From the NCBI RefSeq assembly GCF_009617895.1, contig NZ_BLAW01000001.1, positions 859,001 to 923,000 of the forward strand: a stretch of 64,000 nucleotides of DNA, in the 5' to 3' direction. Both the position numbers and the translations under genes were made by a program. Within the stretch, counting starts at the first letter, position 1. Each line of letters begins with the position of its first letter. The stretch comes from Prolixibacter sp. SD074. Its GTDB lineage: Bacteria > Bacteroidota > Bacteroidia > Bacteroidales > Prolixibacteraceae. The notes beneath the pieces are model-generated. The model had not been told where the DNA came from. It saw nothing but the letters and a program-made list of their open reading frames with translations, and ran no database searches. Of this stretch, positions 17,104 to 20,514 are shown piece by piece.

Positions 17104-18990
17104 TTAATGGTTTGAAGTTTCTACTATCGCGATTTCCTCATCTGTTAAACCATATAACTGATAAACCATCTGGCCGATTTCTTTGTCTGTTTTTTCGATC
17201 TCTGATTGCAGGATTTGGGCTTCCGCTTTTTTTCCTTCGAACAACTCCATCCACTCCATTTCATCCGATTTGGTGAGTACTTTAGCAACGGGTCGTGACC
17301 CGTTGTTGAGACGCTCCTTGTTGGCTGATTTGATTGCTTTATTGAGTTCTTTGATGAATTCCGAAAAGTCAAGTTTGTGCCAGTTTTCGAGCTTTCGACT
17401 CAGTTTATCCGAACCGGTTTGCGATTTCAGGTATTTATTGAATCCGCTTACCCTTGTTTGTATAAGCTCGGTTGAGCGTGTACGTTCAGAAGCTAACTCT
17501 CCAAGCCGGGCGGTTTGTGCTTCATTAGCCTTTGGTACCGGGAAATGTTCGAAATAAACTTTCCGTATTTCGCGGGTCCCACCCTGTAGTTCGGGGCAGT
17601 TGTACCATATCCAACGCTTTGCCAACGATGAATTGAATACCGCTGTTAGATACAGCAGCGAAACAGACTCGTCCTGTGCCGTTAAAATAAAGCTTTTATC
17701 ATTACTTAGATATCCACTTTCATCATGCACGAACGGAAATACCGAAGTCATGTTGGGATAAATGATTTTGGGTTTGGCAAACTCTTCATGGTAGCCAATG
17801 CTATCCTGGGTTTCAAACCATTCTCCTTTTGTTTTCTTGCGTGCCCCGCTATCTCCTGTCTGTTTTAACCGGTCGTAACCAAATGAAAGTAAATGTTGTT
17901 TTATAGCAGGATATTCTTCGATATCCAATTTTAGGGAGGGAAACGTGCCAATTAGGTATTCAAAATCAGTGATTCCATATCCTGCAATATTGCGTCCCCT
18001 CACCATGGGATGAATAATTTCAGCGCTTTTAGCATCTTCTTTAATCAATCTCTTTCGCGTTTCTTCATCAATAAAAAAAGCATCATTGTAACCCGTTTTT
18101 ATTCCATAATTAATACTTATCGGTAATTCCTTTAATTCGGAACCATTTTGTTTCATTCTCTCCAGTATCCTGAAATCGCTGTGCGGTTGGATACTCCATT
18201 CATTTTCACCGAATCGGGAGGAAGGATAGTCATAAATATTCGCTTTTACTTCGGAGAGAAAATCACCCTGATAGGTCTTTCTATTCAATGATAAGACTTG
18301 TACTTTTTCCTTGATTTTATCCTTTTGAGTCACAAAAATGCTAACATAGGTGGTAGCTTCCTGAAAAAATTGAATGTCACCAAAATTGAGTAGCTGCCGC
18401 AAGCCTGTTTTCGATAAAAATTTCCTTAAGGGTTTGCCATAAGCTACCAACATCCATTTATTGGGCATGATGTAGGATTGCCTACCACCATCTTTTAATA
18501 AATTGTAGCCGCGCTCGGTGAAAAGGCAATACAAGTCAGCACCTTTGTCGAATGCCTCATAGCCACAGCTTTTGAGCTTTTCACTCATTTCTCCCATCGA
18601 CTGCAGCTGTACGTATGGCGGATTTCCAATCACCACGTCGAAGCCACCGGTGTATTCGGGGCGGAAGGCGTGTTCGCGGGTGGAGCAGGGGAGCATGCTC
18701 CCCGGTTGGCCGCCCAGCCCATGTTTCGCCCGGTTATTTTGTATGTAGGCCAGCGTGTTATCGAACTGGTCGTTCGATGTGATTTCTTTTTGGTTGAATT
18801 TTTTCGCCCAGAGGTGAAATTGTGTTTTTCCTCTGTGGGGAGCATGCTCCCCTGATCCGGACAGAGTGACAGCTTCATGCGTCGGAGCATGCTCCGACGT
18901 TTCCCGATAGGAAGTATGTACCCCCGCATCGGAGCATGCTCCGATGTCCCTGCATGCTCCGGCGTTGTGCGCCCCATGGCGATATTGCAT
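17104..18990 (-). CDS. Type IIG restriction-modification protein, C-terminal part with RAYT C-half
   Basis: Second open frame of a frameshifted Eco57I-like gene. From about nt 18640 it encodes GGFDVVIGNPPYVQLQ, the amino-methyltransferase motif IV, followed by the target-recognition region (NYGIKTGYNDAFFIDEETR, VRGRNIAGYG, IIYPNMTSVFPF) and a C-terminal helical part ending LYGLTDEEIAIVETSNH. Upstream of NPPY it holds WAKKFNQKEITSNDQ and AYIQNNRAKHG, the C-terminal half of a REP-associated tyrosine transposase domain. The first 60 or so residues are palindrome-derived (SEHAP peptides) and do not mark a true start. Confidence 0.85.
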   Translation of the reverse strand: MQYRHGAHNAGACRDIGACSDAGVHTSYRETSEHAPTHEAVTLSGSGEHAPHRGKTQFHLWAKKFNQKEITSNDQFDNTLAYIQNNRAKHGLGGQPGSMLPCSTREHAFRPEYTGGFDVVIGNPPYVQLQSMGEMSEKLKSCGYEAFDKGADLYCLFTERGYNLLKDGGRQSYIMPNKWMLVAYGKPLRKFLSKTGLRQLLNFGDIQFFQEATTYVSIFVTQKDKIKEKVQVLSLNRKTYQGDFLSEVKANIYDYPSSRFGENEWSIQPHSDFRILERMKQNGSELKELPISINYGIKTGYNDAFFIDEETRKRLIKEDAKSAEIIHPMVRGRNIAGYGITDFEYLIGTFPSLKLDIEEYPAIKQHLLSFGYDRLKQTGDSGARKKTKGEWFETQDSIGYHEEFAKPKIIYPNMTSVFPFVHDESGYLSNDKSFILTAQDESVSLLYLTAVFNSSLAKRWIWYNCPELQGGTREIRKVYFEHFPVPKANEAQTARLGELASERTRSTELIQTRVSGFNKYLKSQTGSDKLSRKLENWHKLDFSEFIKELNKAIKSANKERLNNGSRPVAKVLTKSDEMEWMELFEGKKAEAQILQSEIEKTDKEIGQMVYQLYGLTDEEIAIVETSNH

Positions 18991-20339
18991 GCCCTCGCCG
19001 ATACCGATTTTATTTTTTGTACGATTTTAGGTAGTTCTTCTTCTTCGCAAACCAGCAACATATGGGCATGGTCGCCACAAATATTGTAGGCCAGAATATT
19101 CAGTTTATCTTCATTCGCAATTTCCGCAATGGTTTTCGTTACTATTTCTTCCTCCTTTTCTGATAGCCAAACTGGTTCGCCTGTTTTGACAAGATTGTCG
19201 GACATTCGCTGCGAGTAGCGGGAGTTATGCGTAGCCGTTGTGATATGCCAGGCCTTTTTCTTCTTTTTCTGAAAAATATTCGGAAATTCTTTTTGCCAGT
19301 TAAAGGCTTTTTCTCCGGCAATATTAGGGTCGTCAATCAGTGAGTTACCACATTTAATGTTGTTGCTGAGTGTGTTTAGTTTGCGCCCTTTTTGGGCGGT
19401 TCGTAACCAAAGCGATAGCTTGGCAATTTCAACCGATTCTTCGTTCAGGTCGACGCCATAAATGTTTTTCTCCAGAATGTCGGTTGTAATATCCGGGAAA
19501 ACCAAGGCGCCGCCAAGTAGTTGCCCACGCAACTCGTCAACTTTACGATGCTCGTTTATCAGGAATTCCAGCGCCTGGTTTAAAAACGCGCCCGAACCGC
19601 AGGCCGGGTCGAGAATGGTTAACGACAGGAGCCAGTTGCGATAGTCTTCCAGTTTTTTGTCGAGGGCACGTACAATATCTTTTTTCCGGTTTCTCCTTCC
19701 TTTGGCATATTCCTCATCAACAATTCCCAGTTCTTTCCGTTTTTCCCCGCAAAGTTTTCCAATCGTATTTTCAACAATGTATTTGGTAATGTATTTCGGG
19801 GTATAAAATATGCCGTCTTTTTTCCGCCTGTCGGCAGACAACGGGACATGCCCCGCTATTGCGGCAATTGCCGCAATCTCGCCCAGCGAATGTTCAAAAA
19901 TATGTCCGAGGATATTGACATCTACATCGGTCTCGAAATCGTAACTACTTAACCGCAGGGTGTGTTCGTAAAGAAGATCATCGTCGATGGTAATATTGTC
20001 GAGTATCTCGTCAGGAGTAAAAAGTCCGCCGTTATATGCGAAAATTTCCTCCCGATTGCCTTTTTTAGGCCGACCCTTATATAATACATTAAAATATTGC
20101 CTGAAAATATCGTAAAGCCTTTTGGATTCACCAAAGGCAACATCATCCTTCCATTTTTCAATAATCTGACTAATAGAATTAGCCGGAACCAAAAGCCGGT
20201 CTTCGGCAAAAAAAATAAATAGAAAGCGATCGAGTAGTTTTTGTGTTTTTTTGAAAAGCAGGAGTTTATCTGTCTCCGGATTATTTTTTACCAGGTTGTT
20301 GTAAATCGCTTCGCTGGCAAAAAGTGGAGGCTTAACCAT
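18630..20339 (-). CDS. Type IIG restriction-modification protein, N-terminal part with RAYT N-half
   Basis: First frame of the same gene. It has LLDRFLFIFFAEDR, DVDVNILGHIFEHSL, FYTPKYITKYIV, then methyltransferase motif I LDPACGSGAFLNQ (nt about 19574-19610) and NIYGVDLNEESVEIAKLSLW. At about residue 362 an insertion begins (AWHITTATHNSRYSQRM, then NICGDHAHMLLV), a Y1/RAYT-like domain. After about nt 18925 this frame is out of register and its last 95 residues are artefactual. The N-terminal nuclease region expected in this family is missing; the start MVKPPLF lies in a tandem repeat. Confidence 0.85.
   Translation of the reverse strand: MVKPPLFASEAIYNNLVKNNPETDKLLLFKKTQKLLDRFLFIFFAEDRLLVPANSISQIIEKWKDDVAFGESKRLYDIFRQYFNVLYKGRPKKGNREEIFAYNGGLFTPDEILDNITIDDDLLYEHTLRLSSYDFETDVDVNILGHIFEHSLGEIAAIAAIAGHVPLSADRRKKDGIFYTPKYITKYIVENTIGKLCGEKRKELGIVDEEYAKGRRNRKKDIVRALDKKLEDYRNWLLSLTILDPACGSGAFLNQALEFLINEHRKVDELRGQLLGGALVFPDITTDILEKNIYGVDLNEESVEIAKLSLWLRTAQKGRKLNTLSNNIKCGNSLIDDPNIAGEKAFNWQKEFPNIFQKKKKKAWHITTATHNSRYSQRMSDNLVKTGEPVWLSEKEEEIVTKTIAEIANEDKLNILAYNICGDHAHMLLVCEEEELPKIVQKIKSVSARACNIAMGRTTPEHAGTSEHAPMRGYILPIGKRRSMLRRMKLSLCPDQGSMLPTEEKHNFTSGRKNSTKKKSHRTTSSITRWPTYKITGRNMGWAANRGACSPAPPANTPSAPNTPVASTW
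18688..18963. repeat. Cluster of GGAGCATGCTCC palindromes (REP-like)
   Basis: Four perfect palindromes share the 12-base core GGAGCATGCTCC: 18688-18703 and 18837-18852 (16 bp, flanked G/C), 18880-18899 (20 bp, CGTC flanks) and 18927-18946 (20 bp, CATC flanks). A fifth degenerate half is at 18951-18963. They sit within and just after the RAYT-like domain and are translated as EHAP-type peptides. Confidence 0.85.
18709..19255 (-). mobile_element. RAYT/Y1-like HUH domain embedded in the restriction-modification gene
   Basis: The insert carries WHITTATHNSR, a GDHAHMLL segment with the HUH pair (His-Ala-His codons at nt 19062-19070), IVQKIKSVSAR, then after the palindrome cluster WAKKFNQKEIT and LAYIQNN, whose Tyr (nt 18745-18747) is the candidate nucleophile. 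These are the landmarks of REP-associated tyrosine transposases of the IS200/IS605 superfamily. It lies between methyltransferase motifs I and IV, and apart from the G5 frameshift the host frame continues on both sides. Confidence 0.75.
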
Positions 20340-20514
20340 TTACTAATTGTTTCCCCGGACAAAAAGTGGAGGCTTAACCATTTACTAATTGTTTCCCCGG
20401 ACTAAAATAAGCGTTTAAGCATTTGTTAATTGCTTCACCATGCAAAAGGCGGCCGTTTTAGCATTTGCTAATGACTTCGCTGGCGGAAAGTGGTGGTTTT
20501 TGCATGTACGAATG
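20306..20514. repeat. Five tandem 42-bp repeats at the 5' end of the type IIG gene
   Basis: Units 20306-20347, 20348-20389, 20390-20430, 20431-20472 and 20473-20514. The first two are nearly identical (shared AAAAAGTGGAGGCTTAACCA); the others are diverged. The first unit contains the ATG and first 11 codons of the restriction-modification ORF, and in-frame stops precede it. The remaining bases to 20708 hold no recognised gene. Confidence 0.85.

Follow-up and report, generated by a model that had tools for sequence, protein, structure and literature searches.

Type IIG (IIL) restriction enzymes of the MmeI-like and Eco57I kinds (PDB 5hr4; BpuSI, 3s1s; DrdV, 7lo5) are arranged in the order nuclease, helical spacer, N6-adenine methyltransferase and TaqI-like specificity domain. 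The REP (repetitive extragenic palindromic)-associated tyrosine transposases (RAYTs, or TnpA_REP; NCBIfam REP_Tyr_transpos; PDB 4er8) have a single-tyrosine (Y1) nuclease fold with a histidine-hydrophobic-histidine (HUH) pair, a conserved Trp and a Tyr helix, and their benefit to the cell is, to our knowledge, an open question. The excerpted text of PMC6006769 describes a TnpA_REP subclass, 2.4, which is abundant in Bacteroidetes, carries REP sequences inside its own tnpA_REP gene and is printed with the motifs NH[IFV]H, WQ and YIxNNP; according to the same excerpt, its authors excluded proteins of unexpected length, regarding them as fusions or as errors of annotation. Here we describe a gene in which both kinds of component are joined. 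It lies on the minus strand at 17104–20339 of a 64,000-nt stretch of Prolixibacter sp. SD074 (contig NZ_BLAW01000001.1, positions 859,001 to 923,000; this whole stretch is called the window below) and is a Type IIG gene with a RAYT-like insert between methyltransferase motifs I and IV. We consider it probable that a REP/RAYT-like system resides in this type of gene and that the window holds a decayed member of the family. Both kinds of component are already known; what is new is an exchanged insert module, oriented palindromes inside the gene, and palindromes that track the insert lineage but not the flanking enzyme. A literature search covering open-licence papers found no report of a Type IIG-RAYT fusion.

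The fused proteins share the domain order and the D...ExK, FYTP, DPACGSG and NPPY motifs of Type IIG enzymes but, unlike these, are longer by about 170–360 residues in the stretch from motif I to motif IV, where they hold an HUH/Tyr domain. With RAYTs the insert shares the Y1 HUH fold, the HUH pair, the conserved Trp, the YIxNN Tyr helix, the best fold match and palindromes tied to enzyme lineage, whereas it is not a free gene, shows YIxNNRxKH where RAYTs have YIxxNP, and occurs with palindromes that lack the GTAG foot given in an excerpt of PMC8266576 as a feature of known TnpA_REP substrates. Compared with subclass 2.4 as excerpted (PMC6006769), the insert has different motifs, DHxH, W[TA] and YIxNNR(xKH); REP-like palindromes lie inside the gene in both, but here they lie in the restriction-enzyme parts as well. 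TnpA of IS200/IS605 (IS608, ISDra2) was matched in sequence by the HUH half (E about 1e-5) and in fold by the insert, although those are compact insertion-sequence transposases and the domain here is part of a long protein.

In the window, the gene is read in two open reading frames (ORFs), A and B (Table 1). ORF A matched the Pfam families Eco57I/MmeI_Mtase and, over the HUH half, Y1_Tnp (33.8 bits; cut-off 23), with MmeI_hel slightly below its cut-off, and ORF B matched Eco57I and TaqI_C. The REP_Tyr_transpos profile was split, with positions 22–89 in ORF A (HUH half, 30.7 bits) and 96–140 in ORF B (Tyr half, 20.6 bits), both under the curated 80-bit cut-off. A score above the Pfam cut-off with an HUH pair and a downstream Tyr places the domain in the Y1_Tnp family; of the marks of a RAYT it has the closest fold, whereas the window copy does not reach the 80-bit equivalog score and the GTAG foot is absent. 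A first-pass annotation of the window had placed motif I, the HAH, the Tyr of AYIQNN and NPPY on the minus strand and had proposed a RAYT/HUH nuclease domain between motifs I and IV. Reading of the sequence confirmed the positions, and the Y1_Tnp match and the two REP_Tyr_transpos halves bore out the domain.

The same annotation had pictured one gene joining methylation, possible restriction and a single-strand nuclease/ligase fold, which did not hold for the window copy. Motifs X, I and IV and the specificity domain are all present but spread over two frames, whereas they form a single chain in homologues. Residues 217–697 of L087, the best of ten relatives tried (loci are numbered L and genomes G), corresponded to frame A and residues 673–1266 to frame B; because the homology passes from one frame to the other, the frame change sits inside the insert. 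Residues 1–9 of ORF A lie outside the homology, and residue 10 aligned with about residue 210 of most homologues, so that about 200 N-terminal residues and the nuclease motif are gone; the window copy thus lacks the N-terminal PD-(D/E)XK nuclease of Type IIG/MmeI-like enzymes. A search of the window genome for the missing part, run without an in-genome positive control, gave no match. On its sequence, the window copy is best read as a decayed member of the family. We dropped the palindromes as the source of its frameshift; by eye, the frame switches in the spacer between two of them. The apparent frame breaks of L139 and L160, at four places, were set aside as evidence, three being N runs in the assemblies and one a small palindrome-free deletion. 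A 42-bp unit stands in two exact head-to-tail copies at 20318–20401 of the window, just upstream of where ORF A starts to align with its homologues, at the expected nuclease site.

The fused architecture is recurrent, not a one-off, in Bacteroidota and neighbouring phyla. A contig scan of GTDB gave 188 confirmed relatives, of which the best 80 were kept, and the RAYT-like domain lay in one frame between GNSLI and NPPY at 67 of these 80 loci, frequencies that are not natural ones because collection was by insert similarity. The suspicion in the first-pass annotation that the architecture is maintained was thus upheld, the insert having the same site and frame throughout the 67. Complete ORFs of at least 1,100 aa were found at 50 of them. 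The remaining 13 loci comprised five that leave the contig after GNSLI, five broken or variant at one flank, and three short RAYT-only ORFs (L098, L145 and L153). The RAYT-only ORFs of L098 and L153 start with residues resembling the host-enzyme start, as expected if a fused gene had suffered an internal deletion. L145 (5947–6567) is a short free-standing relative of the insert with no visible host-enzyme pieces and is possibly a free form. Within the order, a 127-residue query spanning the junction matched 55 of 295 genomes. By our count the insert domain itself was present at high similarity in 24 of the 295, the window's included, and in 17 of these it lay in an open frame of at least 1,100 aa; G046 and G279 had weak insert matches in short ORFs, and the rest of the 55 matched mainly the methyltransferase flank. 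A phylum-wide profile search gave matches in 71 of 395 genomes, with more than 74 bits in six only, again including the window's. Record titles span Bacteroidota, Chlorobiota, Ignavibacteria, Cloacimonadota and Neomarinimicrobiota. Chance or an assembly artefact limited to the window, to which the frame-shifted and truncated window copy might point, has a negligible probability and is already refuted by the same architecture in many independent assemblies, including complete fused genes in three named strains, Tangfeifania diversioriginum DSM 27063, Flavobacterium psychrotolerans RB1R5 and one of Chlorobaculum.

A predicted structure of the insert alone had a mean confidence (predicted local distance difference test, pLDDT) of 83.6 and fell below 50 only at residues 93–109, the hypervariable loop. 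Its top Foldseek match in the PDB was 4er8, a RAYT with a REP hairpin (E 2e-5; template-modelling (TM) score 0.46–0.48), followed by the IS608 and ISDra2 transposases, with TM-scores that are modest across these matches (0.34–0.61). The HUH/RAYT fold expected by the first-pass annotation was therefore present in the model. In a 1,200-residue model (pLDDT 79.6, predicted TM-score 0.54) the strands and helices of the insert were in place, and whole-chain fold matches included BrxX/PglX, CamA, BpuSI, MmeI and DrdV.

No variation was seen in 24 insert domains and 55 insert regions at the two HUH His residues, at the Trp, or at the Tyr and the N and R that come after it, and D88/E102/K104, FYTP, DPACGSG, the HUH, Trp697, Tyr718 and NPPY were jointly invariant in 48 full-length proteins. 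The HUH pair and the Tyr, which the first-pass annotation had taken as RAYT hallmarks, were thus conserved. D88/E102/K104 was called the nuclease motif by pattern, and the roles of the other motifs were assigned from known motifs. When the three strains were scanned, MmeI_N was above its cut-off in L138 and L150, and L114 had only sub-threshold MmeI_N/HSDR_N. The ratio of nonsynonymous to synonymous substitution (dN/dS), an approximate count in which some dS values exceed 1, was 0.03–0.30 for the insert core in eight of eight chosen pairs and likewise 0.03–0.30 for the methyltransferase core. The invariant catalytic motifs and the low dN/dS suggested that selection maintains the insert as an enzyme.

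The joint conservation of three catalytic centres and the low dN/dS would also suit an insert that is a working third domain of a defence enzyme, cutting hairpins of single-stranded DNA that enters the cell from phages, from plasmids or in transformation, with the palindromes as by-products or a self-marking device. Two isolate proteins had as their best PADLOC match the Type IIG model PDLC03609 (1,066 residues), whose profile aligned in three separate stretches, and of nine neighbour genes scanned at five loci four were RhuM (two), Fic or SEC-C/HEPN, the other five being metabolic, regulatory or peptidase-like. Against a defence domain, the insert travels independently of the enzyme, the short ORFs of L153 and L098 retain from the host protein, beside the RAYT, no more than its first residues or the flank nearest the insert, and insertless relatives are common, so that restriction should not require the insert. 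We regard this explanation, which is compatible with a resident REP/RAYT-like system, as unlikely. For annotation the case matters in any event, since PADLOC calls these proteins Type IIG enzymes and Pfam, through Y1_Tnp, calls the same proteins transposases.

Insert-free relatives read, for example, EFPEIF-KN-GGFDVVIGNPPY, and it is at that point that the fused ones carry their additional residues. To compare insert and host, we used a non-redundant set of 87 of 105 fused genes, in which close relatives are still present because it was filtered by one identical stretch. Identities were taken from the 66 of the 87 with all landmarks (2,145 pairs). A tree was built on the pre-insert region and motif IV. 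Its 88 rows comprised 60 fused genes of the 87 and 28 controls of the 36; the gappy row L138 and the genes that lack landmarks, 26 fused and 8 control, were not included. The insert has been gained or lost repeatedly: the fused state cost 16 changes on this methyltransferase tree, at least 9 of them forced by well-supported branches, and a single-clade origin was rejected (log-likelihood 898 lower; approximately unbiased test, p-AU 3e-50). Insert identity did not follow methyltransferase identity (Spearman rho -0.014), compared with rho 0.688 between the host N-terminal part and the methyltransferase region MT1 and 0.521 between the two halves of the insert. Since insert similarity is unrelated to host similarity and one origin is rejected, the insert is an exchanged module, and these comparisons indicate that it has switched hosts many times and was not simply inherited with the gene. 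L058 and L083 have inserts 92% identical (dS 0.39) in enzymes 63% identical (dS 1.23), and G027 carries a fused and an insertless copy (L068, L078) that are sisters on the tree.

Such exchange could be that of a passive cassette in a tolerant loop, swapped by homologous recombination, with palindromes spreading by slippage or gene conversion without HUH activity. Some relatives have shorter unrelated inserts (21–75 residues) at this site, the C-terminal half is swapped in genes without the RAYT insert too, and the similar stretch of L053 and L108 starts upstream of the insert, near GNSLI, as recombination predicts. The invariant HUH, Trp and Tyr and the low dN/dS are, however, unexpected for a passive spacer, palindromes outside the insert track the insert lineage, and palindromes are almost absent from relatives without the RAYT insert (1 of 36); we judge a passive cassette quite unlikely. 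L187, L188, L204, L205, L219 and others have a helical-looking K/E-rich insert of about 60–75 residues in the motif I–IV loop. In the fused pair L101/L103 identity was 0.99 in the N-terminal part, 0.98 in MT1 and 0.97 in the insert, and 0.34 in the C-terminal half. The divergence of this pair runs from just past NPPY almost to the C-terminus, a swap of the specificity half. We rejected the insert as the cause of target-domain swapping, because the insertless pairs L189/L190 and L191/L193 have swapped the post-NPPY half too.

The fused genes hold perfect or near-perfect palindromes of 16–32 bp. With arms of at least 8 and a G+C content of at least 40% as the criterion, at least one was present in 63 of 66 fused genes but in 1 of 36 relatives that have no RAYT insert; 36 of the 66 had one outside the insert. 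The control L191 holds an A+T-rich palindrome of the same kind, under the G+C limit. Within inserts there were 95 palindromes, against a mean of 0.3 and a maximum of 2 in 20 codon shuffles. Palindrome density per kb was 2.3 in the insert, 2.0 in the loop before motif X and 0.19–0.38 in the rest of the gene, in a tally where some sites of L138 were mislabelled after an early motif match (later counts use HUH-anchored limits or unique positions). The consensus, drawn from a listing whose in- and out-of-insert labels repeat identical strings, was AACAAGGGG-N6-CCCCTTGTC, about 24 bp, with lineage-specific variants. In the window, the insert has four GGAGCATGCTCC palindromes; shuffling predicts 0.07 for the window, and the 3.96-Mb genome has no further exact copy.

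Similarity among palindromes followed the insert. Palindromes in the insert and at other sites of one gene were alike at 7.24 of 8 half-arm bases (34 genes), compared with 5.45 between genes (0 of 2,000 permutations). Palindrome similarity was correlated with insert lineage (rho 0.496, 0 of 500 permutations), also when palindromes outside the insert were taken (rho 0.252, 1 of 500), but did not follow the flanking enzyme (MT1, rho -0.09 and -0.06). The link to palindromic DNA, which the first-pass annotation had put forward as a possibility, was in this way supported. That the palindrome is the recognition site of the restriction enzyme was not favoured; the post-NPPY segment gave rho 0.022 and -0.042, a partial test since this segment is 130 residues and not the whole specificity domain. 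In at least four of nine close pairs (L112/L124, L097/L105, L048/L138, L116/L126) whole elements were present in one gene and absent from its partner.

Along the gene, 113 palindromes were forward, 8 reverse and 40 ties. They fell in different reading phases (96, 60 and 5), so that one DNA encodes peptides such as TRGHVPLS or NKGINPLV. In L067, the loop after the Tyr helix is longer by well above 100 residues owing to an expanded tandem array of DESYYHNQGGENYDHNKG, and the frame stays open. The predominance of one orientation relative to the coding strand, and inverted repeats with short centres, could mean that the palindromes act mainly in mRNA, as translation-pausing hairpins or in self-regulation by RAYT binding, rather than as DNA substrates. 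We find this very doubtful, since their presence and place differ between close relatives, they are read in different frames, and the solved structures of relatives include complexes with single-stranded DNA hairpins.

Taken with the above, a resident REP/RAYT-like system would work as follows. A RAYT-type (Y1, HUH and Tyr) domain is housed at one fixed loop, between the S-adenosylmethionine-binding half (motif I) and catalytic motif IV, and most likely recognises and cuts or rejoins single-stranded hairpins of the palindromes described above. The presumed substrates are found in the gene's own loops, beside the nuclease motif, ahead of motif X, within the insert's loops and in the C-terminal region, so that the gene would house an enzyme together with its substrates, which the insert domain may itself have generated. 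Restriction and methylation would work alongside the domain. Restriction genes exchange the module at this one place, the simplest route being recombination across the conserved GNSLI...EFP and GGFDVVIGNPPY flanks. Rickettsial palindromic elements lie within genes. REPs, too, occur inside genes (excerpt of PMC3733652). These have in common with the present case a tolerated palindromic DNA, whereas here the carrier gene also encodes a hairpin-nuclease-like domain whose lineage the palindromes follow. A gene of this kind in named strains offers a compact test system for whether RAYTs make and move palindromes, and a restriction-enzyme loop that repeatedly accepts a whole nuclease-like domain bears on how such genes diversify.

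Inteins and homing endonucleases resemble the RAYT insert in being nuclease-like modules confined to one place in a conserved gene and scattered over the tree of that gene. The RAYT module might by analogy be a self-moving, homing-like element for restriction genes, whose HUH activity on self-seeded palindromes copies module and palindromes and rewrites loops of its own protein; the gene of a restriction enzyme would then be edited by its own product. We hold self-movement of this sort to be possible but rather unlikely. Unlike inteins, no intein domain was among the Pfam matches of the window ORFs and the scanned homologues.

Several points weigh against a resident REP/RAYT-like system as just outlined. 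The fused genes were collected by insert similarity and the 36 controls by flank matches, so that neither set is random, and the G+C limit for palindromes was fixed after the data had been seen. Of 161 palindromes, 10 had a canonical GTAG foot close by, where chance alone would give about 12. Ordinary homologous recombination could swap the region without any action of the insert, as insertless relatives do their C-terminal halves, and the orientation bias could stem from within-gene copying or an RNA-level role. The window copy itself is without a nuclease domain, and its frame is broken. Similar palindromes in some genomes sit in other genes or between genes, and 12 of the 26 genomes with the strict consensus had no insert in the junction-query scan.

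These 12 were among the 271 genomes outside the 24 insert-bearing ones, of which 14 had the strict consensus (p 4e-11). Four of the 12 (G114, G187, G279 and G288) bear the element in relatives of the restriction gene, and L235 of G288, missed by the junction-query scan, resembles a truncated fragment of a fused gene. By coordinates, all 11 copies of AAGGGGACATGTCCCCTT across 27 genomes were on fused genes or RAYT fragments. The 22 copies of GGAGCATGCTCC in 27 genomes were distributed over fused genes (16), a RAYT-only ORF (3), a site downstream of a broken fused gene (1), another Type IIG gene (1) and another gene (1). We rejected the rule that palindromes occur in the fused gene alone, which holds in the window genome (four of four) but not generally. 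In G263, such a palindrome (peptide TRGLIPLL) is in frame in several similar proteins (L259–L261), and L260, when scanned, was a two-component propeller/SpoIIE protein. L216 of G016 has an in-frame palindrome in another Type IIG gene (DUF7149/DUF7814, MmeI_Mtase), of which the 839 aa that were read contain no RAYT insert.

Table 1. Positions of the parts of the fused gene and of its palindromes in the window.
Feature	Position	Strand	Remarks
ORF A, 569 aa	18630..20339	-	MmeI_hel-like spacer, methyltransferase motifs X and I, HUH half of the RAYT-like insert
ORF B, 628 aa	17104..18990	-	Frame differs from ORF A; Tyr half of insert, NPPY, TaqI_C target-recognition domain, conserved C-terminus
Motif X region, KDGIFYTP	19797..19820	-	Read from sequence; FYTP invariant in 48 homologues
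Motif I, DPACGSGAF	19584..19610	-	DPACGSGAFL invariant in 48-protein alignment
RAYT-like insert, bounded by FPNIF and GGFDVVIGNPPY	18649..19271	-	Two residues at this site in insert-free relatives
HUH motif, HAH of GDHAH	19062..19070	-	Both His invariant in 24, 48 and 55 homologues
Conserved Trp of HLWAKKF	18808..18810	-	Directly before fourth strand; invariant in 24, 48 and 55 homologues
Presumed catalytic Tyr of AYIQNN	18745..18747	-	Invariant in 24, 48 and 55 homologues
Motif IV, NPPY	18613..18624	-	Invariant in 48 full-length proteins
TaqI_C specificity domain	17536..17853	-	ORF B residues 380–485; Pfam match
Inter-palindrome spacer holding the frame change	18896..18930	-	By eye; frame switch between ORFs from homology
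Palindrome CATCGGAGCATGCTCCGATG	18927..18946		Hypervariable loop of insert
Palindrome CGTCGGAGCATGCTCCGACG	18880..18899		Hypervariable loop of insert
Palindrome GGGGAGCATGCTCCCC	18837..18852		Hypervariable loop of insert
Palindrome GGGGAGCATGCTCCCC	18688..18703		After Tyr helix
Palindrome CAACGGGTCACGACCCGTTG	17286..17305		C-terminal region; some homologues carry elements there too

Downstream of the fused genes of L138, L096 and L114 there were RhuM, Fic and SEC-C/HEPN genes. A different RAYT, of the YIENNP type, was in frame within a 1,167-aa DUF1156 protein, presumably methyltransferase-like, in G340 (L221, 1–3501, minus strand), where several in-frame repeats besides the RAYT could be seen by eye; this is possibly a second, independent RAYT in a defence-type gene. 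In G555 (L227, 3–1406, minus strand), a single ORF comprised an HSDR_N type I restriction domain followed by a RAYT, which was flanked on both sides by near-identical repeats of GGFSNPPNYPNGGQECPPSF and resembled a REPtron inserted in a restriction gene.

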